Assembly: GCA_023129075.1 (NCBI GenBank)
Contig: JAGMCT010000024.1
Location: 1 to 34,192, forward strand
Direction: 5' to 3'
DNA: 34,192 nucleotides
Source: Microcaldota archaeon
Lineage (GTDB): Archaea > Micrarchaeota > Micrarchaeia > Anstonellales > Bilamarchaeaceae
The notes beneath the pieces are model-generated. The model searched no databases and was not told where the DNA came from. It saw nothing but the letters and a program-made list of their open reading frames with translations. Position numbers and translations under genes: made by a program. The first letter of the stretch is position 1. Each line of letters starts with the position of its first letter. Of this stretch, positions 5,823 through 23,399 are shown one piece after another.

Positions 5823-6824
5823 ATGTTCAGGAATAAAAAAATACTAATAACTGGTGGTACTGGAACCATTGGGAAGGAATTGATTAGAGAACTTCTCAAG
5901 CAAGAGCCAGATGTAATCAGGATTTATAGCAGGGATGAAACAAAACAATATCTTATGGAGAACAGCGAATTTGCAGACCATAATGAACGATTAAGGTATT
6001 TGATAGGGGACATAAGGGATCGGAAAAGGTTGGCAATTGGTATGGAAGAGATTGATATTGTTTTTCATACTGCAGCCCTAAAACATGTGAAGTCATCCGA
6101 GTATAATCCCTTTGAGGCGGTCAAAACCAATATACTGGGCACTCAAAATGTAATTGAGACGGCCCTGGAAAAAAATGTTGAAAAGGTATTATTTACAAGC
6201 AGTGATAAAGCGGTTAACCCAACCAATGTAATGGGCATAAGCAAACTCATGGCTGAGAGACTCATCACTTCTGCGGAGTACTACAAAGGCAGGAAGCAAA
6301 CAATTTTCTCATCCGTAAGATTTGGGAATGTCTTCGGTTCAAGAGGCTCGGTGGTTTCTCTTTGGAAAGGGCAGATGAAAAAAGGATACATAACAATGAC
6401 AAAGCCAGACATGACTCGGTATATGATGACAAGTGGCAAGGCAATAGAGCTTATTCTTAAGGCATGTGAACTCTCCATTGGTGGGGAGATATTTGTGTTT
6501 AAAATGCCATCAGTAAGATTATCAGACTTGGCTGTGGCTTTGATAGACAGGTTTGGAGAAAATAAACAAATAGAAGTAAAAGAGATTGGTTTGAAGGATG
6601 GAGAGAAGGAATACGAGGAGCTGATGACAGAAGAGGAAAGAAGCAGAGCACTTGAAATTGGAGAGATGTATGTTTTGCTTCCCCAAATAAAAGAATTGTT
6701 CAGATCAAAACACAGTAATTATTTAAAATTAGGGGCGAAGCAGATAGAAAAAAAGAAATATTCTTCAACAGATGAAAAGATGCTTTCAAAAGATGAAATA
6801 ATTAAAATGTTTTTGAAAGAGTGA
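5823..6824 (+). CDS. UDP-GlcNAc 4,6-dehydratase (PseB/CapE-like, SMK type)
   Basis: Extended short-chain dehydrogenase of 333 residues. NAD(P) motif GGTGTIG at residues 11-17, SSDKA at 126-130, and MGISK at 137-141, where Met replaces the usual catalytic Tyr. This Ser-Met-Lys triad is known from the WbpM/CapE group of UDP-GlcNAc 4,6-dehydratases. Further family blocks are FHTAALKHVKSSEYNPFEAV and RFGNVFGSRGSVV. The reaction would convert UDP-GlcNAc to a 4-keto-6-deoxy sugar, the first step toward pseudaminic or legionaminic acid or FucNAc-type sugars. It heads the long sugar operon and is followed after 4 nt by a cupin gene. A T/A-rich TATA candidate (about 5766-5774) overlaps the end of the preceding gene. 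PseB versus CapE function cannot be separated by eye. Confidence 0.85.
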   Translation: MFRNKKILITGGTGTIGKELIRELLKQEPDVIRIYSRDETKQYLMENSEFADHNERLRYLIGDIRDRKRLAIGMEEIDIVFHTAALKHVKSSEYNPFEAVKTNILGTQNVIETALEKNVEKVLFTSSDKAVNPTNVMGISKLMAERLITSAEYYKGRKQTIFSSVRFGNVFGSRGSVVSLWKGQMKKGYITMTKPDMTRYMMTSGKAIELILKACELSIGGEIFVFKMPSVRLSDLAVALIDRFGENKQIEVKEIGLKDGEKEYEELMTEEERSRALEIGEMYVLLPQIKELFRSKHSNYLKLGAKQIEKKKYSSTDEKMLSKDEIIKMFLKE

Positions 6825-6828
6825 GGCG

Positions 6829-7230
6829 ATGAGATTACTGAATAGGGTGAAACATACAAATGAATCAGGCTGGCTTGCAGAGCTTGTTTCCATGAATTAT
6901 GATGATGAGCCTTTTAACTGCCTTCATTCTTATGTCGTCATGATAAATCCAGGTTGTACAAGAGCAAATCATTACCATAAGGAGAAAGAGGAATGGATTG
7001 GCATATGTTCAGGAGAACTGACTTTATTATTCGAGAATATGGAAAATGGGGTGAAGGATAAGATTATTTTGAATGCTGATGAAAAGGAGTATAAGCTTGT
7101 TTATATTCCCCCCATGGTCGCACACACGATAATTAACAAAAGGAATGAGAAGGCCACAGTGATTGTTTTTAGCACAACGTTTTCCAAAGAAAAGGATGTT
7201 TATCTTTATGAGGTGAAGGAAAATGACTAA
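6829..7230 (+). CDS. Cupin-fold sugar epimerase/isomerase-like protein
   Basis: A 133-residue single-domain cupin. Metal-site motif 1 is visible as PGCTRANHYHKEKEEW (about residues 42-57, with the H-x-H pair and a following Glu), and motif 2 as IPPMVAHTIIN (about residues 92-102). It resembles the C-terminal cupin domain of CapF (WbjC), which acts on a 4-keto-6-deoxy UDP-sugar, and the FdtA/WxcM ketoisomerases. It starts 4 nt after the dehydratase stop, so both likely work on the same 4-keto intermediate. In CapF the cupin is fused to a reductase; here it is followed by a dying SDR N-terminus at 7223, perhaps the former partner. Exact reaction unproven. Confidence 0.68.
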   Translation: MRLLNRVKHTNESGWLAELVSMNYDDEPFNCLHSYVVMINPGCTRANHYHKEKEEWIGICSGELTLLFENMENGVKDKIILNADEKEYKLVYIPPMVAHTIINKRNEKATVIVFSTTFSKEKDVYLYEVKEND

Positions 7231-7306
7231 TTTGTTTGTTATGGGGTGGAGCTTCATAGATAGCCACGTGATAGATGCGCTACTGAAAAGAGGTAAAAAT
7301 GGATGA
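7223..7306 (+). pseudogene. N-terminal remnant of an SDR epimerase/reductase
   Basis: A 27-codon frame, MTNLFVMGWSFIDSHVIDAL followed by LKRGKNG and TGA. It aligns with the standard start of NAD-dependent epimerases (M-x-N-I-L-V-T-G-G-A-G-F-I-G-S-H-V-V), but the glycine-rich loop is corrupted: TGGAGFIGSH has become MGWSFIDSH. Its ATG overlaps the cupin stop by 8 nt and a good AGGTGAAGG ribosome site precedes it, so it was once the translationally coupled next gene of the operon. Everything after the first helix is gone. Confidence 0.6.
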
Positions 7307-7472
7307 ACCCATGGTTTTAAAGAGAGGCTCAACCATAAAGATTTTTTGTAAAAAGCTTCCAAGAGGATTTCTCAAGAATTTTCGGTATGCCTTGGTTTGG
7401 GGAAAAAGCGTAAAATTCCCTGGCCAGAGAGTTGGCCTTAACCATGTTCTTGAGGAAGGAGAGTATAATTAA
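7299..7472 (+). pseudogene. TGS-domain fragment of a DRG-type GTPase
   Basis: A 57-codon frame from ATG 7299 reads DEPMVLKRGSTIKIF, then FRYALVWGKSVKFPGQRVGL and NHVLEEGEYN before a stop at 7470-7472. This matches the C-terminal TGS domain of the DRG family of GTP-binding proteins (compare EFRYALVWGTSAKHQPQRVG in eukaryotic DRG1), including the preceding D-E-P-[LM]-[IV]-L-K-R-G. The GTPase domain is absent and the last strand is cut. Such a ribosome-associated domain has no expected place in a sugar operon. It is most likely translocated debris, less likely a stand-alone TGS mini-protein. Confidence 0.62.
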
Positions 7473-7494
7473 GATTGTAAAGAGGTGAAGGGTC

Positions 7495-7644
7495 ATGGTA
7501 ATGCAGACAGAAATTGACAAAGTAATCTCATGGTGCGAGGAAAGGAAAAAGGAAAAACAAAGGATATACATAGTTGAAAGGAATTCCTTTAGAGATGAGA
7601 TTGACTGGATGCGGAGATTTTCTCCAGAGGAGACGCACGGTTAA
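7495..7644 (+). CDS. Small charged protein of unknown function (49 aa)
   Basis: The frame starts MVMQTEIDKVISWCEERKKE and ends RRFSPEETHG. A purine-rich GAGGTGAAGG sits 4-5 nt upstream of the ATG, the strongest ribosome-binding site in this stretch, which argues that it is or was translated. The sequence is amphipathic and rich in Lys, Arg and Glu, with no membrane segment. I do not recognise a family. It could be an intact small protein or the tail of another decayed gene, since both upstream neighbours are remnants. It precedes the methyltransferase by 35 nt. Confidence 0.4.
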   Translation: MVMQTEIDKVISWCEERKKEKQRIYIVERNSFRDEIDWMRRFSPEETHG

Positions 7645-7679
7645 GTGTTGATTTTATTACATAGGTTTTAGGTGTTTTT

Positions 7680-8429
7680 ATGGCAGATATTAAAAAAATT
7701 ATTTTAACCAAAGGGATATTCTCAAAGGAGGAGAACGAAAGAATATATAATCAAAATTTTAAAGATTGGTATAAACTCCACCTACCGATCTATAAGGAAT
7801 TTGCGCTTAAAAAAGAAGACAGGATATTGGATATTGGATGCTCTTTCGGTATGAACCTTATTCATTTCAACAAAGAATCAATTGGTCTTGAATTAACGGA
7901 TGTAAAATGTAGGTTTGCTAGGTCGATCGGGTTAAACGTGATCAAGACAAATGTAGAGGAATCTTTCAAACTTGATGATTCAGAACGATTTGATGTCATC
8001 TGGTGCACCGATTTTTTAATCCATCTTACCAGTCCCTATAAATTCCTCCTAGAATGTCGAAAATACATGGATGAAGATTCTTCCTTAATTCTTCAGATTC
8101 CTCAATACACACCACTTATTCCTCAATCGATAAAAAGGACATATGAAACCAAGGTTCATTATTATGCTTTTAACTATCCAACCCTAAAATATTTAGTTGA
8201 GAATTCGGGATACGAAGTCATAAAAAGTCTTGGTCATGTACGACATTTTCCATATTTAGTGAATAAATCGTTTAATTTTTTTCTAAAACGCTTTGGCTCC
8301 AACATTTGGATAAAGGCAAAAAAAGATTTTGGATTTTATCATGCGGAAAAACAACCTAATTTCCCAGACCATATGAAAGATTTATATATCAAACAAACAA
8401 AATCAGGGCGGGATGAAACGCATGACTAA
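7680..8429 (+). CDS. Class I SAM-dependent methyltransferase
   Basis: A 249-residue Rossmann methyltransferase. Motif I is ILDIGCSFGMNL (about residues 48-59), the acidic post-I strand is SIGLELTDVK, and motif IV-like FDVIWCTDFLIHL (about residues 103-115) is followed by ILQIPQYTPL. The C-terminal 80 residues are rich in aromatic and basic residues, as in sugar methyltransferases of O-antigen-type loci. The message may start leaderless from an A/T-rich box near 7650-7659. The gene overlaps the next by 8 nt, joining it to the nonulosonate operon. A sugar O- or N-methylation role is inferred from context only. Confidence 0.8.
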   Translation: MADIKKIILTKGIFSKEENERIYNQNFKDWYKLHLPIYKEFALKKEDRILDIGCSFGMNLIHFNKESIGLELTDVKCRFARSIGLNVIKTNVEESFKLDDSERFDVIWCTDFLIHLTSPYKFLLECRKYMDEDSSLILQIPQYTPLIPQSIKRTYETKVHYYAFNYPTLKYLVENSGYEVIKSLGHVRHFPYLVNKSFNFFLKRFGSNIWIKAKKDFGFYHAEKQPNFPDHMKDLYIKQTKSGRDETHD

Positions 8430-9372
8430 GATATTTGTTACAGGAGGAGCAGGATTTATAGGAAGAACTACAGTTAAGCAGTTATTAGCGAGAGAAGATG
8501 TTGAGAAGGTTCTTGTTCTGGATAATTTGAGCAACGGAAGCAGAAAAAATATGGTTGAGTTTGAAAATGACCCGAAGTTTGATTTTGTTGAAGGAGATAT
8601 ACTTGATAATAAGCTCCTGGGGAGTTTATTTGCAAAGGAACAATTTAATATTTGTATTCACATGGCGGCCCAAATAAATGTTCATGAATCCCTTCAGAAC
8701 CCAAAGAAATCTTTTGATTACAATGTTATTGGTTCATATAATATTCTGGAGCAATGTAAAAAACATAAAACAAAAGTTATTTTCATTGGAACCTGCATGG
8801 TTTATGATTTAGCAGATTATTCAAAACCAATAAATGAAGAACATAAAACTTTGCCACGTTCTCCTTATGCAGCTACAAAACTTGCTGCAGAGCAATTAGC
8901 CATTTCTTATCACCATGGATTCGGTCTTCCCATAACAATACTTAGACCTTTTAATGTTTATGGACCTTTTCAGAAAAGAAATTCAGAAGGAGGTGTTGTT
9001 AGCATATTCATTAGTAAGGCACTGAAAAATGAACCAATTGGAGTTTTTGGAGATGGGACTCAGACAAGAGATCTTCTTTATGTTGAAGACTGTGCTGATT
9101 TTATCATCAAAGCGGCATTTTCTAAGAATGCAGTCGGAGAAACAATCAATGCCGGTTTGGGAGAAGATGTGAGTATCAACGATCTTGCCAAGTTGATATC
9201 CCGGAAGAGAAGTGAAATAAAAAATGTTAAACACCACCACCCCCAGTCTGAAATTCAAAAATTAATATGTGATAATACAAAAGCAAAGGATTTATTAGGG
9301 TGGGAGCCAAAAACGTCTTTAGAAGAAGGTATCCGTAAAACAGAAGAATGGATGAGTGAACAAAATGGGTAA
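8422..9372 (+). CDS. NAD-dependent epimerase/dehydratase (GalE-like SDR)
   Basis: Extended SDR, 316 residues from this start. It has the NAD motif TGGAGFIGR (residues 7-15), ICIHMAAQINVHESLQNP with the family's AA-x-V/I signature, CMVYDLADY, and the catalytic SPYAATK (Tyr-x3-Lys), followed by RPFNVYGPFQ and QTRDLLYVEDCADF. It belongs with UDP-hexose 4-epimerases and related dehydratases. An in-frame ATG at 8413 also exists. ATG 8422 is preferred because GGGCGGG ends 9 nt before it but directly abuts ATG 8413, and because homologues start at M-x-K-I-x-V-T-G. It overlaps the methyltransferase by 8 nt and the aminotransferase by 8 nt. Substrate unknown. Confidence 0.85.
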   Translation: MTKIFVTGGAGFIGRTTVKQLLAREDVEKVLVLDNLSNGSRKNMVEFENDPKFDFVEGDILDNKLLGSLFAKEQFNICIHMAAQINVHESLQNPKKSFDYNVIGSYNILEQCKKHKTKVIFIGTCMVYDLADYSKPINEEHKTLPRSPYAATKLAAEQLAISYHHGFGLPITILRPFNVYGPFQKRNSEGGVVSIFISKALKNEPIGVFGDGTQTRDLLYVEDCADFIIKAAFSKNAVGETINAGLGEDVSINDLAKLISRKRSEIKNVKHHHPQSEIQKLICDNTKAKDLLGWEPKTSLEEGIRKTEEWMSEQNG

Positions 9373-10483
9373 ATTTATTCCATATGGAAAACAATCTGTA
9401 TCTGAAGAAGATATTTCTGCAGTAGTAGAGGTCCTTAAAGGAGATTGGCTTACAACAGGACCCAAAGTTCCTGAATTTGAGAAGTCGGTCTGTGAATACA
9501 CTGGTGTTAAGCACGGCGTTGCAGTGAACTCTGGAACTAGTGCTCTTGATATTGCTGTCGACTCCTTAAATTTACCAAAGGAAAGCGAGATAATTACAAC
9601 TGCATTTACCTTTGCAGCAACTTCTAATTGCATACTCTACAACAATCACAAGCCTATCTTTGCAGACATACTTCCAGATACCTACACTTTAGACCCAAAT
9701 GATGTTAAGAAGAAAATTACTGATAAAACTAAAGCCATAATTTGCGTTGATTATGCAGGACACCCATGTGAATTGGATGAATTGAAAGAAATTGCTGATA
9801 AATACAATCTGTATTTGATAGAAGATGCATCACATGCCCTTGGTGCTAGTTATAAGGGTAAAAAAGTGGGCGGGATTGCAGATATAACGGTATTCAGCTT
9901 TTACCCTATAAAACCAATTACAACTGGGGAAGGTGGGATGGCTGTAACCAACAATAGTGAATTTTATGAAAGAATGTCTATTTTGAGAAATCATGGTATA
10001 GATAAAACACCTGAACAGAGAACAACATGGAAGTATGACATGAAGTTATTAGGAAGAAATTATAGAATTACTGATATACAATGTGCATTGGGTCTATCTC
10101 AAATGAAAAGGCTGGATAGGTTTGTTGAGAGCAGAAAAAAGATTGCAAAAATATATTTTGATTTGTTAGACGGACTAAATTCAGTTAAACTTCCTACCAT
10201 AAGAGAATACGCAAAGTCCTCTTGGCATCTGTTTCCAATTTTATTTGAAAACAATAAGAAAAGGAAGATAATGTTTTCACTTTTAAGAGAAAACAGCATC
10301 GGAGTGAATGTTCACTATATCCCTATTTATAATTTTTCTTATTACAGAGGTATCGATTATGATAATTTAAGGCTTATGATTACCGAGATGGTCAGCGAAA
10401 GGGAACTATCTATTCCAATATACGTTGGCCTTGATGACAAAAGTATTAATAAGATTGCAGATTTAATAAAGAAAAATATGTGA
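9365..10483 (+). CDS. pseC: PLP aminotransferase, DegT/PseC-like
   Basis: A 372-residue fold-type I aminotransferase of the DegT/DnrJ/EryC1 family, closest in pattern to PseC, which aminates C4 of the 4-keto-6-deoxy-UDP-sugar made by the dehydratase. Family blocks: the opening IPYGKQSVSEEDI, DWLTTGPKVPEFE (28-39), SGTSALD (56-62), the cofactor Asp in IEDASHALG (152-160), and FSFYPIKPITTGEGG (177-191) with Lys183 as the probable Schiff-base lysine. An earlier GTG at 9356 is possible; ATG 9365 is preferred because it gives the 8-nt overlap seen at neighbouring junctions. The PseC label is from motif resemblance; LegC-type specificity is possible. Confidence 0.85.
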   Translation: MGKFIPYGKQSVSEEDISAVVEVLKGDWLTTGPKVPEFEKSVCEYTGVKHGVAVNSGTSALDIAVDSLNLPKESEIITTAFTFAATSNCILYNNHKPIFADILPDTYTLDPNDVKKKITDKTKAIICVDYAGHPCELDELKEIADKYNLYLIEDASHALGASYKGKKVGGIADITVFSFYPIKPITTGEGGMAVTNNSEFYERMSILRNHGIDKTPEQRTTWKYDMKLLGRNYRITDIQCALGLSQMKRLDRFVESRKKIAKIYFDLLDGLNSVKLPTIREYAKSSWHLFPILFENNKKRKIMFSLLRENSIGVNVHYIPIYNFSYYRGIDYDNLRLMITEMVSERELSIPIYVGLDDKSINKIADLIKKNM

Positions 10484-10487
10484 TGGT

Positions 10488-11531
10488 ATGAAGATAAAAG
10501 TTGGCAATAAATTTATTGGAGATGGAGAACCATGTTTCATTATTGCGGAAGCGGGTTCTAATCACAATAAAAAATTAGATATGGCTAAAAAGTTAATTGA
10601 TGTTGCAGCAGATGCAGATGCTGATGCTGTAAAATTTCAATTATTTAAAGCGGATAAATTATATGTTGGCAAACCAGGATTTGCCGATTATCTAGAAAAT
10701 AAAAAATCTATTTATGAAATAATTAAAAACATGGAATTTCCTGTAGAATGGCTTGATGAGTTGTTTTCTTATGCTGATAAACGAGGGCTTTTATTCTTAG
10801 CAACCCCCTTCCACGAAGAAGCTGTCGATGTTTTGGATGGATATGTGCCTGCACATAAAATTGCATCTTATGAATCAAATCACATTCCTTTAATAAAATA
10901 CGCTGCAAAAAAAAGAAAACCATTATTTATTTCAACAGGAGCATCTACTCTGGAAGAAATCTGTGAGGCTGTTGAGGCAGCACGTTCTGTTGGAAATGAG
11001 AATATTGTTCTTCTTCAGTGCGTAGCTAAATATCCGGCTCCTATTAATTCCCTTAATCTAAATGTGATAAGATTTTTTAAGAAAAAATTTCATATTCCTG
11101 CAGGTTTGTCTGATCACAGCAGAGATCCTCTGATTGGCCCCCTAACTTCGATAGGGATAGGGGCGAATGTTATTGAAAAACATTTTACACTTGATAATAA
11201 ATTGCCTGGGCCGGACCATAAATTTGCTGTTGAACCTAAAGAATTGAAGAGGATGGTTTTTGCAATTAGGGAGGCAGAAAAGGCGTTAGGTAAAGAAGAA
11301 AAACAAATCCTTTCTATAGAACAAGAACTTTATGATTTTGCTAAGAGAGCAGTGCATGTTACGAGAGATATAAAAAAGAATGAAATATTTTCACAAAAGA
11401 ACATAGCTGTTTTGAGACCTGGAAAAGTAAAGAGGGGCCTCCCCCCTAAATTCTTTGAGAAGATTATTGGAAAAAAATCGACAAGAGACATCTTTAGGGA
11501 TGAGGGGGTATTGGAAGGTGATTATGAGTGA
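10488..11531 (+). CDS. NeuB/PseI-family nonulosonic acid synthase
   Basis: Condenses phosphoenolpyruvate with a six-carbon amino sugar to make a nine-carbon sialic-acid-like sugar. The 347-residue length is standard. The TIM barrel shows EAGSNHN (21-27), VKFQLFKAD (48-56), LATPFHEEA (104-112), GLSDHS (206-211), VIEKHFTLD (228-236) and GPDHKFA (241-247), the PEP and metal binding set. The C-terminal SAF antifreeze-like domain (about 287-345) has RAVHVTRDI and LRPGKVKRGLPP. It starts 4 nt after the aminotransferase and its TGA overlaps the next GTG. The neighbours favour pseudaminic or legionaminic acid over N-acetylneuraminate, but the product is not proven. Confidence 0.9.
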   Translation: MKIKVGNKFIGDGEPCFIIAEAGSNHNKKLDMAKKLIDVAADADADAVKFQLFKADKLYVGKPGFADYLENKKSIYEIIKNMEFPVEWLDELFSYADKRGLLFLATPFHEEAVDVLDGYVPAHKIASYESNHIPLIKYAAKKRKPLFISTGASTLEEICEAVEAARSVGNENIVLLQCVAKYPAPINSLNLNVIRFFKKKFHIPAGLSDHSRDPLIGPLTSIGIGANVIEKHFTLDNKLPGPDHKFAVEPKELKRMVFAIREAEKALGKEEKQILSIEQELYDFAKRAVHVTRDIKKNEIFSQKNIAVLRPGKVKRGLPPKFFEKIIGKKSTRDIFRDEGVLEGDYE

Positions 11532-11968
11532 ATGTTAAACTGGAAGAAGTAAAGCAGCAAAACATTGAATTTATTTTCAATCTGAGAAATATGAAGCAAA
11601 TTAGGAAAAATATGTTCAACCCAGACATTATTTCATGGGACGAACATCAAGCTTTTTGGAAAAATCGTTTGAGTAGAAAAGATTTATTTTCATTTTTAAT
11701 TTTGGTTGACGGTGCGCCAAACGGAGTTTTGAAATTGGATCTGGTGAAGAAAAATGATTGTGAAATAGATATTTTTCTTCATCCAAAAGTACAAGGCAAA
11801 GGAATTGCCACTCAAGCAATCAAAGAACTTATCTCATTTGCTAGAACAAAGAACATTCTGAAACTTCTTGCACGTGTTAAACCGGATAATATTTCTTCGC
11901 GTAATCTTTTTGAAAGGTTTGGTTTTAATTTAAAATATGTTCTCTATGAATATGAGGTGAAAAAATGA
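11528..11968 (+). CDS. GNAT N-acetyltransferase, PseH-like
   Basis: A 146-residue GNAT enzyme. The N-terminal FIFNLRNMKQIRKNMFNPDIISWDEHQ-type stretch (about residues 14-40) is the pattern of PseH and RimJ/RimL relatives. The acetyl-CoA site appears as IDIFLHPKVQGKGIATQAIKE (about 79-99; the QGKGIA loop), with a late NISSRNLFERFGF (about 118-130) typical of GNAT motif B. In the pathway it would acetylate the 4-amino group made by the PseC-like enzyme. It starts with GTG in a GTGA overlap with the synthase gene, and its TGA overlaps the ATG of the deacetylase, so translation is tightly coupled. Confidence 0.8.
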   Translation: MNVKLEEVKQQNIEFIFNLRNMKQIRKNMFNPDIISWDEHQAFWKNRLSRKDLFSFLILVDGAPNGVLKLDLVKKNDCEIDIFLHPKVQGKGIATQAIKELISFARTKNILKLLARVKPDNISSRNLFERFGFNLKYVLYEYEVKK

Positions 11969-12639
11969 AAGTTCTTGTTGTTGCGGCCCATCCAGATGAT
12001 GAAGTTCTTGGTGCTGGCGCAACCATTGCAAAACATACTGAGAAAGGAGATGATGTCAAGGTTTTAATTCTTGGAACAGGAGTTACTTCCAGAGAAGTTG
12101 AGAATCCGAGATTAAAAGTAGAAGAATTGGTAAATGATTCAAAAAGAGCACTTTCCCTTTTGGACGTTTCCGATATTATTCATTTAGATTTCCCCGATAA
12201 TCAGTTTGATTCTGTTTCCCTACTTGATATAATAAAAGAAGTTGAAAAGATTGTAAGCAAATTCAACCCTGAAACGGTTTATACGCATCACTGGGGGGAT
12301 TTAAACGTAGACCACAGACTAACATTTGATGCTGTTCTTACTGCATGCAGACCATTTTCTTCTAATGTCAGGAAAATACTTTGTTTTGAAGTTCTTTCAT
12401 CAACAGAATGTACTATTCAGAGCGTACAAAACTCATTCGCACCAAATTATTTTGTGGAATGTAAAAAAACAATAAAGAAAAAAATTGATGCGCTAAAGGA
12501 ATATAAATCAGAAATAAAAAAGTGCCCCCATCCTCGTTCACTTGAGAGTGTTGAATATCTTTCGCGCTATAGGGGAACCATGATAGGGAGGGAATATGCA
12601 GAAGCATTTGTTCTTGTAAGAGATATCAAAGGTGATTGA
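11965..12639 (+). CDS. PIG-L/LmbE-family N-deacetylase
   Basis: A 224-residue zinc-dependent deacetylase of the PIG-L family, which removes N-acetyl groups from amino sugars. The signature AHPDDE at residues 8-13 supplies His and Asp metal ligands plus the catalytic Asp, and HHWGDLNVDHR (108-118) supplies the second His. Overlaps on both sides (ATGA with the GNAT; 8 nt with the GT2) place it inside the operon. Deacetylation followed by the formyltransferase two genes downstream would replace N-acetyl with N-formyl, a known kind of nonulosonate decoration. That route is inference. Confidence 0.88.
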   Translation: MKVLVVAAHPDDEVLGAGATIAKHTEKGDDVKVLILGTGVTSREVENPRLKVEELVNDSKRALSLLDVSDIIHLDFPDNQFDSVSLLDIIKEVEKIVSKFNPETVYTHHWGDLNVDHRLTFDAVLTACRPFSSNVRKILCFEVLSSTECTIQSVQNSFAPNYFVECKKTIKKKIDALKEYKSEIKKCPHPRSLESVEYLSRYRGTMIGREYAEAFVLVRDIKGD

Positions 12640-13312
12640 AATCAGAAAACCGGATGTTAGCATCATAATCCCTGTTTACAATGGGAAAGATACTATTGAG
12701 AGGGCATTGCAAAGCGTTTTTGAGCAGGATTTCAAAGGGATTATTGAAGTAATAGTAGTTGATGATGGCTCAACAGATGGAACAAAGGAAATACTACAGA
12801 GATATCTCAAAAGAATAAAGCTCATATCGCAGAAAAACAGAGGACCGGTTGAAGCAGCAAACACGGCCTTTGCAAATATTTTAGGGAAATACATTATGAA
12901 ACTTGATGCAGACGATACATTTGAAAGGACAATAATAAGAAAAATGCACTCCGTGTTAGAAAAAGATAAATCTCTTGCCTTTGTTTATTCTAATTATTAT
13001 GAAGTGAATGCATCAAAGAGTGAGAAGAAAGTAGTGAATACAGCAACCAATCTTCTAAACACTGTTGCGATAGGCATAATGTTCAGAAAAAGTATTCTTG
13101 ATGAAGTAGGGTTCTACGATGGAGAGTTGATATTTCCTGAATACGACCTGTTACTTCGATTATCTAAGAAATATTCTAGTTATCATATTCCAGAACCTCT
13201 TTTTACATACTTTAGGTCTTATGAAAGTCTTACTGGGGATAAAGTAATTGTAGCAAAAGGAATAAAACAGCTTTCGGATAAATATGGAGAATTGAAAGTT
13301 AGGGGTTATTGA
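12632..13312 (+). CDS. Glycosyltransferase family 2
   Basis: A 226-residue GT-A enzyme. It shows the opening VSIIIPVYNGKDTIERALQS, VIVVDDGSTDGT (about residues 41-52), and the metal-binding KLDADDT (about 90-96; D-x-D type). It ends soon after an acceptor-region LIFPEYDLLLRLSKK, so it is a single catalytic domain without membrane helices. It starts at GTG 12632 inside the deacetylase stop region (8-nt overlap), and its TGA is immediately followed by the ATG of the formyltransferase. Within this operon it is a candidate for transferring one of the sugars made here; donor unknown. Confidence 0.88.
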   Translation: MIEIRKPDVSIIIPVYNGKDTIERALQSVFEQDFKGIIEVIVVDDGSTDGTKEILQRYLKRIKLISQKNRGPVEAANTAFANILGKYIMKLDADDTFERTIIRKMHSVLEKDKSLAFVYSNYYEVNASKSEKKVVNTATNLLNTVAIGIMFRKSILDEVGFYDGELIFPEYDLLLRLSKKYSSYHIPEPLFTYFRSYESLTGDKVIVAKGIKQLSDKYGELKVRGY

Positions 13313-14233
13313 ATGAAGATCGTTTTTATTGGAGCTCTTCTTTGGGGGTTTCGTTGTCTTGAATCTTTGCTTGAGGATGGGAAAGAAGTTGTCGCAGTTT
13401 TTACGTTATCTGATAAATTCAAAGACAGAAGCGGTTTTGTTGATTTTTCTCCTCTTTGTTCAAAGCACAACATTCCTGTTTTTGAAATTGATGATCCCAA
13501 AACTCATAATTTTCAGAAAATAAAGGAATTTAATCCTGATTTAGTACTGGTGATAGGATGGTCTTGGATTGTTCCAGATATAGTTCTTGACTCCTCGAAA
13601 GTTGCCTGCATAGGCAATCATCCCACTCTTCTTCCTAAACACAGAGGAAATGCTCCCCTCCCTTGGTCTATCATTATGGGTCTAACGAAATCAGGAGTAA
13701 CCTTTTTCGAGCTTGAAAAGGATGTTGATTCAGGAAAGATTTATGGCCAGAAAGAGTTTGAGATAGGATTCGAGGATTATGCTTCCGATGTTTACAGGAA
13801 AGCACTCAATACCTCTGTGTTACTTCTTCATGAAGTTATCGAGAAACTTGAAAAGAACACGTTAGTACCTATTGCGCAGGATTCCAGAAAGGCTTCTAAA
13901 TGGCCAAAAAGAAAGCCTGATGATGGAATAATCGACTGGAATAAAGGAAATGTGTCCATATATAATTGGATACGCGGTCTTTCTCATCCATATCCTGGAG
14001 CTTTTACATTCTTAGGAGATAAAAAATTATTTATCTGGAAAGCTTCGATTTATTCTGGAAAGAAATTTGTTGGAGTTCCGGGACTGCTCCGTATATTCAA
14101 GAATTCAGTTGTTGTAAAGACTGGAGACGGTGCCCTACTATTTGAGATACTTCAATTTGAGGGAGATTCTGAGATGAGTGGGCTTAATTTTGTGAAAAAA
14201 TATTCCGTTGCGCCCGGGATTGTTATGGGGTGA
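13313..14233 (+). CDS. Formyltransferase (FMT-like, probably sugar N-formyltransferase)
   Basis: A 306-residue protein with the formyl-tetrahydrofolate transferase fold: N-terminal MKIVFIGALLWGFRCLESL, catalytic GNHPTLLPKHRG (101-112, His103) and ELEKDVDSGKI (133-143, with the D-x-G Asp139), then a C-terminal OB-like domain including RGLSHPYPGAFTF. In classic methionyl-tRNA formyltransferase the Asn is two residues before the His; here it is adjacent, which fits the GxHPTxLPxxRG subgroup of sugar formyltransferases. Its place next to a PIG-L deacetylase and a NeuB-family synthase suggests N-formylation of the nonulosonate or its precursor. A real methionyl-tRNA role is unlikely in archaea, which do not formylate initiator tRNA. 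Confidence 0.8.
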   Translation: MKIVFIGALLWGFRCLESLLEDGKEVVAVFTLSDKFKDRSGFVDFSPLCSKHNIPVFEIDDPKTHNFQKIKEFNPDLVLVIGWSWIVPDIVLDSSKVACIGNHPTLLPKHRGNAPLPWSIIMGLTKSGVTFFELEKDVDSGKIYGQKEFEIGFEDYASDVYRKALNTSVLLLHEVIEKLEKNTLVPIAQDSRKASKWPKRKPDDGIIDWNKGNVSIYNWIRGLSHPYPGAFTFLGDKKLFIWKASIYSGKKFVGVPGLLRIFKNSVVVKTGDGALLFEILQFEGDSEMSGLNFVKKYSVAPGIVMG

Positions 14234-23140: not shown

Positions 23141-23167
23141 TCACCCCCCATTCTCTCTACTTTTTAT

Positions 23168-23242
23168 GGGCTCGTAGCTCAGCTTGGCCAGAGCGGCGGA
23201 CTTTTAATCCGTAGGTCAGGGGTTCAAATCCCCTCGAGCCCG
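23168..23242 (+). tRNA. tRNA-Lys (anticodon UUU)
   Basis: A complete cloverleaf of 75 nt. Acceptor GGGCTCG pairs with CGAGCCC and leaves discriminator G. D-arm GCTC/GAGC has a 10-nt loop. Anticodon arm GCGGA/TCCGT has loop CTTTTAA, giving anticodon TTT (lysine). T-arm AGGGG/CCCCT has loop TTCAAAT. There is no intron, and no CCA is encoded, as in many archaeal tRNA genes. TTTT follows immediately at 23243-23246 and could end the transcript. Its 3' 15 nt plus one base recur 81 nt downstream. Confidence 0.97.
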
Positions 23243-23263
23243 TTTTAACAAACGGTCTTTCGG

Positions 23264-23377
23264 TTTATCCTTCGGATAAAACTCTCAGAAATCCTGTGGA
23301 TTTCCAAGATCCCCTCGAGCCCGTCCGAACCGTGGAGGGGGACACTCCCTCCCCAGTTTCAGGGTCCTCCTGACCCT
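23264..23377 (+). other. GC-rich hairpin cluster downstream of tRNA-Lys
   Basis: Four compact hairpins follow each other: 23264-23280 (7-bp stem TTTATCC/GGATAAA), 23288-23304 (7-bp GAAATCC/GGATTTC), 23334-23352 (6-7 bp GGAGGG/CCCTCC) and 23361-23377 (6-bp AGGGTC/GACCCT). The tRNA 3'-end copy lies between the second and third. The part from 23309 on is about two-thirds G+C by hand count, far above the surrounding A/T-rich DNA. No reading frame of note and no terminator T-run. It could be a structured RNA, a miniature mobile element, or leader structure for the gene at 23400; the identity is unknown. Confidence 0.5.
23309..23324 (+). repeat. Copy of the tRNA-Lys 3' end (att-like direct repeat)
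   Basis: The 16-nt sequence ATCCCCTCGAGCCCGT is identical to 23228-23243, i.e. the 3' part of the T-arm, the acceptor strand, the discriminator and one flanking base of tRNA-Lys. The copy has no matching 5' half, so it is not a second tRNA. Duplication of a tRNA 3' end is the usual trace of an integrated element (attL/attR), but only 65 nt lie between the copies and no integrase is seen. Confidence 0.75.
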
Positions 23378-23399
23378 CCCCCGAAATTTGGTGAATAAA

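Follow-up and report, generated by a model that had tools for sequence, protein, structure and literature searches.

tRNA genes are classic landing sites of mobile DNA, and knowledge of how they are used rests on large elements that bear an integrase. In archaea, integration by tyrosine recombinases duplicates the tRNA 3' end and leaves the tRNA restored (PMC8371274, PMC9897764); the att sites involved may measure as little as 8-14 bp, and the 5' halves of tRNA genes serve as targets for one type of integrase (PMC8371274). Casposons, too, create a target-site duplication when they integrate at tRNA 3' ends, which are the targets of five euryarchaeal casposons (PMC4046053). In Caldiarchaeum, fragments of tRNA-Thr found beside the tRNA were attributed to integration (PMC3293823); only one tRNA is affected there, and a distance of 1.8 kb separates it from the 5' fragment, which is accompanied by a recombinase gene. 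The RHE of organelles are short hairpin-forming repeats whose mechanism of transposition is debated (PMC2800124). In the tyrT region of E. coli (the 178-bp repeats of tyrT/tyrV, rttR/tpr region), we checked the sequence and found that the terminal 19 nt of tRNA-Tyr (tyrV), starting in the T-loop, recur exactly three more times with a spacing of 178 nt. To our knowledge, this one E. coli locus is the only other place where copies of a tRNA end form such a pattern. The Rickettsia palindromic elements are short, non-coding, dispersed palindromic repeats that also occur in-frame in ORFs. No description of the repeats reported below, or of the combination in which they occur, was found in the papers searched.

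The window, which is the whole stretch of 34,192 nt analysed here, belongs to the draft genome of a Microcaldota archaeon (25 contigs, 93% complete), the sole genome sampled for its genus. It contains an intact tRNA-Lys(TTT) gene on the plus strand at 23167-23243 (ARAGORN; RF00005, 72.2 bits). The last 16 nt of this gene at 23228-23243, ATCCCCTCGAGCCCGT, which correspond to tRNA-Lys nt 59-73 plus a T at 23243 inside the ARAGORN gene end, recur exactly on the same strand at 23309-23324. An earlier note had pointed out this recurrence, and our counts bore it out: 0.08 matches to the 16-mer are expected in the window, two matches were present in none of 100 shuffles, and allowing up to 3 mismatches revealed no third match in the whole window. 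The spacing given in that note was also correct, as the proximal and distal copies are offset by 81 nt from start to start and are separated by 65 non-coding nt without a gene. As at archaeal att sites, the tRNA 3' end is therefore present as a direct repeat and the tRNA is restored. In contrast to those sites, neither an integrase gene nor cargo or other element DNA lies between or beside the repeats, and one repeat sequence is combined with many tRNA ends, here at a 65-nt spacing.

The spacer (23244-23308, plus strand) was found to be one copy of a palindromic repeat, termed A, that forms a genome-wide family. Copies were recovered by BLAST, and the covariance model R1 matched the tRNA-Lys spacer at 23250-23308 with an E-value of 5.7e-19. 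The repeat is composed of two hairpins, about 50 nt together, and a variable lead; it measures 65 nt at tRNA-Lys and 65-78 nt across tRNA loci. The first predicted hairpin, TTTATCC-TTC-GGATAAA, occupies 23264-23280 and the second, GAAATCC-TGT-GGATTTC, 23288-23304, both on the plus strand. The pairs of both hairpins co-vary among the copies (score of 0.286 vs 0.137; 0/500 shuffles), and the fold of the unit has a z of -2.1. Terminal inverted repeats common to the A copies were not seen. An Rfam search of the repeats returned only tRNA/5S and sub-threshold matches, and a search of 84,980 genomes and IMG/VR with the A-core pattern gave 55 matches, which is about the chance level, almost none of them with the first hairpin. 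A double hairpin much like A is present in a Diapherotrites MAG record (L158:90-180), and a tRNA was not detected in that stretch.

To describe the distribution of A, we consider first its positions within this genome, whose tRNA genes are intron-rich. In an A-only search, all six own-genome matches were located at tRNA genes, namely Lys, Arg(TCT) on contig C13, Ser (three) and Gly. The Ser matches are three tandem copies with a period of 84 downstream of tRNA-Ser(GCT) on contig C5, and the Gly match is an inverted copy beyond the tRNA at C12:98100. Inspection of the tRNA flanks brought three more, two of them after tRNA-Arg(TCG) and the third after the tRNA-Leu at C16:30544. The R1 model gave 12 strong matches at 7 loci, 6 of which are just downstream of tRNAs. 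As the 250-nt regions after the 37 tRNAs make up only about 1% of the genome, this clustering is far from chance (by hand calculation, P < 1e-10, or about 1e-6 with placement restricted to intergenic DNA).

Each direct-orientation copy of A is followed by the 3' end of its own tRNA, at some loci in the form of tandem arrays. The end copies are CCCTCCGGGCCCG at Arg(TCT) (13 nt), TCCCTCCCTCAGCG three times at Ser(GCT) (14 nt plus trailer), TCCCTTCGGGCCCG twice at Arg(TCG) (14-18 nt) and ATCCCTTCCCCTGCA at Leu C16:30544 (15 nt), and all of those at A loci begin at about tRNA nt 59-61. An own-end copy was absent at the inverted A beyond tRNA-Gly and at a weaker A match after tRNA-Met. Additionally, end copies with other spacers were present at Thr (25 nt), Leu C11 (two copies) and Leu C4 (11 nt). 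Viewed as target-site duplications of the casposon type, the copies measure 13-16 nt at A loci and are of variable length elsewhere; the overall range is 11-25 nt in this genome, and a copy in the genome G020 reaches 29 nt.

These results bear on the earlier note, which had read the tRNA-Lys locus as an att-type scar. A tRNA 3' end duplicated with an insertion, and a tRNA left intact, is what we observe; an excision scar or an empty element is not supported, because the spacer is repeat A, which at other tRNA loci is likewise accompanied by copies of the respective tRNA end. The proposal that integration here helped to bring in glycan genes is not supported either, since no gene lies in the interval and the duplication recurs at many tRNAs elsewhere. 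The window carries genes for sugar activation of the pseudaminic/legionaminic acid type at 5823-14233, with PseC above the cut-off at 9356-10483 and PseB- and PseI/NeuB-like matches below it.

End duplication affects about a third of the tRNA genes of this archaeon. The terminal 9-mer of the tRNA itself is repeated no more than 260 nt downstream at 8 of the 37 tRNA genes, compared with 2 of 1316 for the 9-mers of other tRNAs in the same flanks. Exact repeats of at least 11 nt within 250 nt were likewise present at 8/37 tRNAs, whereas positions remote from tRNAs had them in 2.0% of cases (P 7e-7). The 5' ends are also involved, as nt 1-8 are repeated upstream at five of the 37 genes (Ser, Met, Cys and two Leu; 1/1296 for foreign 5' ends), and tRNA-Cys has three upstream 5'-end units with a small hairpin in each. 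At the tRNA-Ser(GCT) gene on C5 (L238), 61-bp units upstream each end in flank plus tRNA nt 1-9, and the 84-bp array lies downstream. The genome thus resembles the E. coli tyrT/tyrV repeats in having downstream units that each contain the exact 3' end of their own tRNA. The E. coli case differs in that it is a single locus with long units, without a palindromic mobile repeat, and its copies include the encoded CCA, whereas the archaeal repeats involve about a third of all tRNA genes, form short hairpin units and extend to 5' ends.

The sequence on the far side of the duplication suggests which copy was there first. At Leu C16:30544, CTTTCTTT, which is the trailer of three other Leu genes, follows the distal copy only, and this arrangement of sequence identifies the distal copy at that locus as the original end. 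At tRNA-Lys, a second palindromic repeat, termed B (23325-23391, plus strand; CCGAACCG), lies directly 3' of the distal copy. Repeat B is dispersed in many genera of the family, with identities of up to 95% across genera, and its fold is no more stable than that of shuffles. The four full-length B copies of this genome all abut tRNA 3' ends, those outside the window being at Gly, Leu and a fourth tRNA. Since B elsewhere sits directly on tRNA ends, and the Leu trailer comes after the distal copy, the proximal copy together with A appears to be the added part, and the distal copy at tRNA-Lys probably represents the original end, which the insertion moved away from the gene.

Signs that A is mobile came from copies away from tRNAs and from related genomes. 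Three other genomes (G001, G013 and G003) contain scattered A-like copies, the A at C12:98100 is inverted, and at C1:12010-12131 (L237), beside a remnant of B, one A is nested within a hairpin loop of a second A. In G001, an A-like copy lies in-frame in an IPP-isomerase-like ORF (L240, C57), flanked by AGTCTTGA repeats; in G003 (L258, C39), a different palindrome occupies the same point of the corresponding ORF, and both insertions are flanked by AGTCTYGA-type direct repeats. The presence of different palindromes at one ORF point in two genera may be a sign of fast turnover of the hairpin sequence. A composite copy at a gene end (L209) is flanked by a 13-nt direct repeat. The direct repeats around 17 dispersed A copies show only a modest excess (mean of 7.4 vs 6.4 nt), which weighs against insertion with duplication. 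Given the dispersal of A-like repeats, their nesting within one another and the in-frame copy in an ORF, we regard A as mobile. It shares with the RHE and the Rickettsia palindromic elements its short length, non-coding and palindromic character, dispersal, in-frame copies in ORFs and double hairpins; unlike them, it is concentrated in this genome at tRNA ends together with copies of those ends.

This association with tRNAs is a property of the present genome, as A is mostly dispersed in relatives. The genome G031, from another genus, has a copy of the tRNA-Thr end with an A-like unit directly beside it (L213). By the same test, 3' end copies were found at 5/17 tRNAs in G031 and at 0/65 in four genomes of two further genera. 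The 29-nt end copy of G020 belongs to its tRNA-Lys and differs at the discriminator base. A second copy with the spacer was absent at tRNA-Lys of other genera.

From the observed copies, the A family, its recurrence at several tRNAs with their own ends and the signs of mobility, we favor, with a probability of roughly 55%, the reading that a mobile palindromic repeat was inserted at the tRNA 3' end and duplicated the terminal segment while the tRNA was left intact. In particular, A, a short non-coding repeat, would insert at the 3' end of tRNA-Lys, and the insertion would duplicate the terminal 13-16 nt, which run from the boundary of T-loop and T-stem up to the discriminator base. The tRNA would then be completed by the proximal copy, and the former end would persist as the distal copy, with the old downstream sequence behind it. 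The duplication may have been made at insertion, either as a target-site duplication by a staggered cut or through a crossover in the T-loop by a recombinase; a strict staggered cut with target-site duplication is disfavored because the lengths of the end copies vary. Tandem arrays could grow by repeated insertion or unequal exchange, and the enzyme would act in trans. If this is correct, tRNA ends throughout the genome are used by a repeat of about 50-65 nt that carries no gene, the tRNAs stay intact, and a short tRNA-end duplication is not necessarily the scar of an integrase. It would also open the questions of which enzyme is involved, how the tandem arrays form and whether the units turn into tRNA introns.

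A more far-reaching reading, which we put forward only tentatively, is a dedicated integration system for tRNA termini, in which hairpin units of DNA or RNA would be placed at either end of tRNA genes and the tRNA end would be rebuilt at each event, the tRNA tail thereby playing the part of the repeat in a CRISPR-like array. Such a system would be new.

Partial tandem duplication by slippage or unequal exchange, as at E. coli tyrT, with A arriving later or carried along, is in our view unlikely as the general explanation, although it describes some loci well. In the E. coli precedent the end copies are exact, and perfect 57-bp units at Leu C11 and units of 84 and 168 bp at Ser are those of simple tandem duplicates. 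In G031, a tRNA-Gly gene (C2:69177, L303) is followed by units made of part of its own intron and the whole 3' exon end; these units and those at Leu C11 look like plain partial tandem duplications. However, such a process would copy the native trailer, and the proximal copy at Leu C16:30544 is without it. The A loci also differ from simple tandem duplicates in that one repeat is common to unrelated tRNAs, which requires mobility in any case.

We consider it unlikely that the locus is an att remnant, in which a tyrosine integrase put an element into tRNA-Lys near the T-loop and the element was then lost or shrank to leave two att cores. The copies do span the range used by archaeal integrases, from the vicinity of the T-loop to the tRNA 3' end, and the genome does encode a tyrosine recombinase of the kind that the earlier note had in mind, but this enzyme adjoins tRNA-Asp and not tRNA-Lys. 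It is the only one in the genome, XerA-like with a C-terminal zinc ribbon (C12:9768-10961, minus strand; L097), and it starts about 60 nt 3' of tRNA-Asp(GTC), among several ORFs without Pfam matches. Its region is possibly an integrated element with the other end off the contig; a second tRNA-Asp end was not found within 11 kb. None of the eight tRNAs with 3' copies has an integrase of its own, and no relative was seen to carry a larger element between such copies. Furthermore, independent deletions would not be expected to leave one 65-78 nt repeat at tRNAs with different ends, and one A sequence combined with five tRNA ends does not fit a single fixed attP. At about 81 bp, a closed circle would also make a very small double-stranded substrate.

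It is very unlikely that the unit is a functional structured RNA, such as a trailer with a second acceptor 3' strand that serves tRNA maturation, termination or regulation. The co-varying hairpin pairs and the fold described above would suit such an RNA, but the spacer and copy are not conserved at fixed length, the pattern that the earlier note associated with a structural RNA: the arrangement is absent at tRNA-Lys of other genera. A also occurs away from tRNAs and within an ORF, and the unit had no Rfam match. The units complement their own tRNA end no better than foreign ends (mean normalised rank of 0.51), a result on which acceptor-stem mimicry as a general rule was also rejected; three units in G031 are strong individual cases of complementarity to the own tRNA end. 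A casposon-like origin, with a Cas1-type integrase making the duplication and the tandem units as repeated insertions in a primitive CRISPR array, is highly improbable, as the insertion at a tRNA 3' end with a direct repeat, the tandem arrays and the known casposon targets agree with it, but casposons are kilobases long and encode Cas1 and PolB, Cas1 was not found here, common terminal inverted repeats were not seen in A, and casposon targets overlap only 4-7 tRNA nt (PMC4046053), compared with 13-15 here.

For the preferred insertion of a mobile repeat, no enzyme in the genome stands out as a candidate. Cas1 (PF01867) is absent from this 93%-complete genome, and a source in trans is possible. 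A full Y1 (TnpA-REP) transposase, the resident enzyme of REP/RAYT systems, was not found in the genome, which contains only a 54-codon REP-transposase fragment at C5:63776.

Finally, several observations concern disrupted tRNA genes. An intron with the end copies as exon was also considered and rejected, since no bulge-helix-bulge fit was found at the junctions by eye. In G017, a tRNA-Arg(TCT) gene has a complete copy of B within its apparent intron (C5:16391-16450; L017). On the more far-reaching reading of a dedicated integration system, the entry of such repeats into tRNA introns could therefore account in part for the numerous disrupted tRNA genes in these archaea. With the tRNA model, only 4 tRNA genes were detected in G001 and 10 in G003, genomes rated 89% complete; tRNA genes in these genera probably escape the model through being heavily interrupted or split. 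Two further tRNA genes (G000:C13:40043-40117, L093; G000:C3:11268-11323, L095) have apparent T-loop introns, with their real 3' exons beyond the model match.
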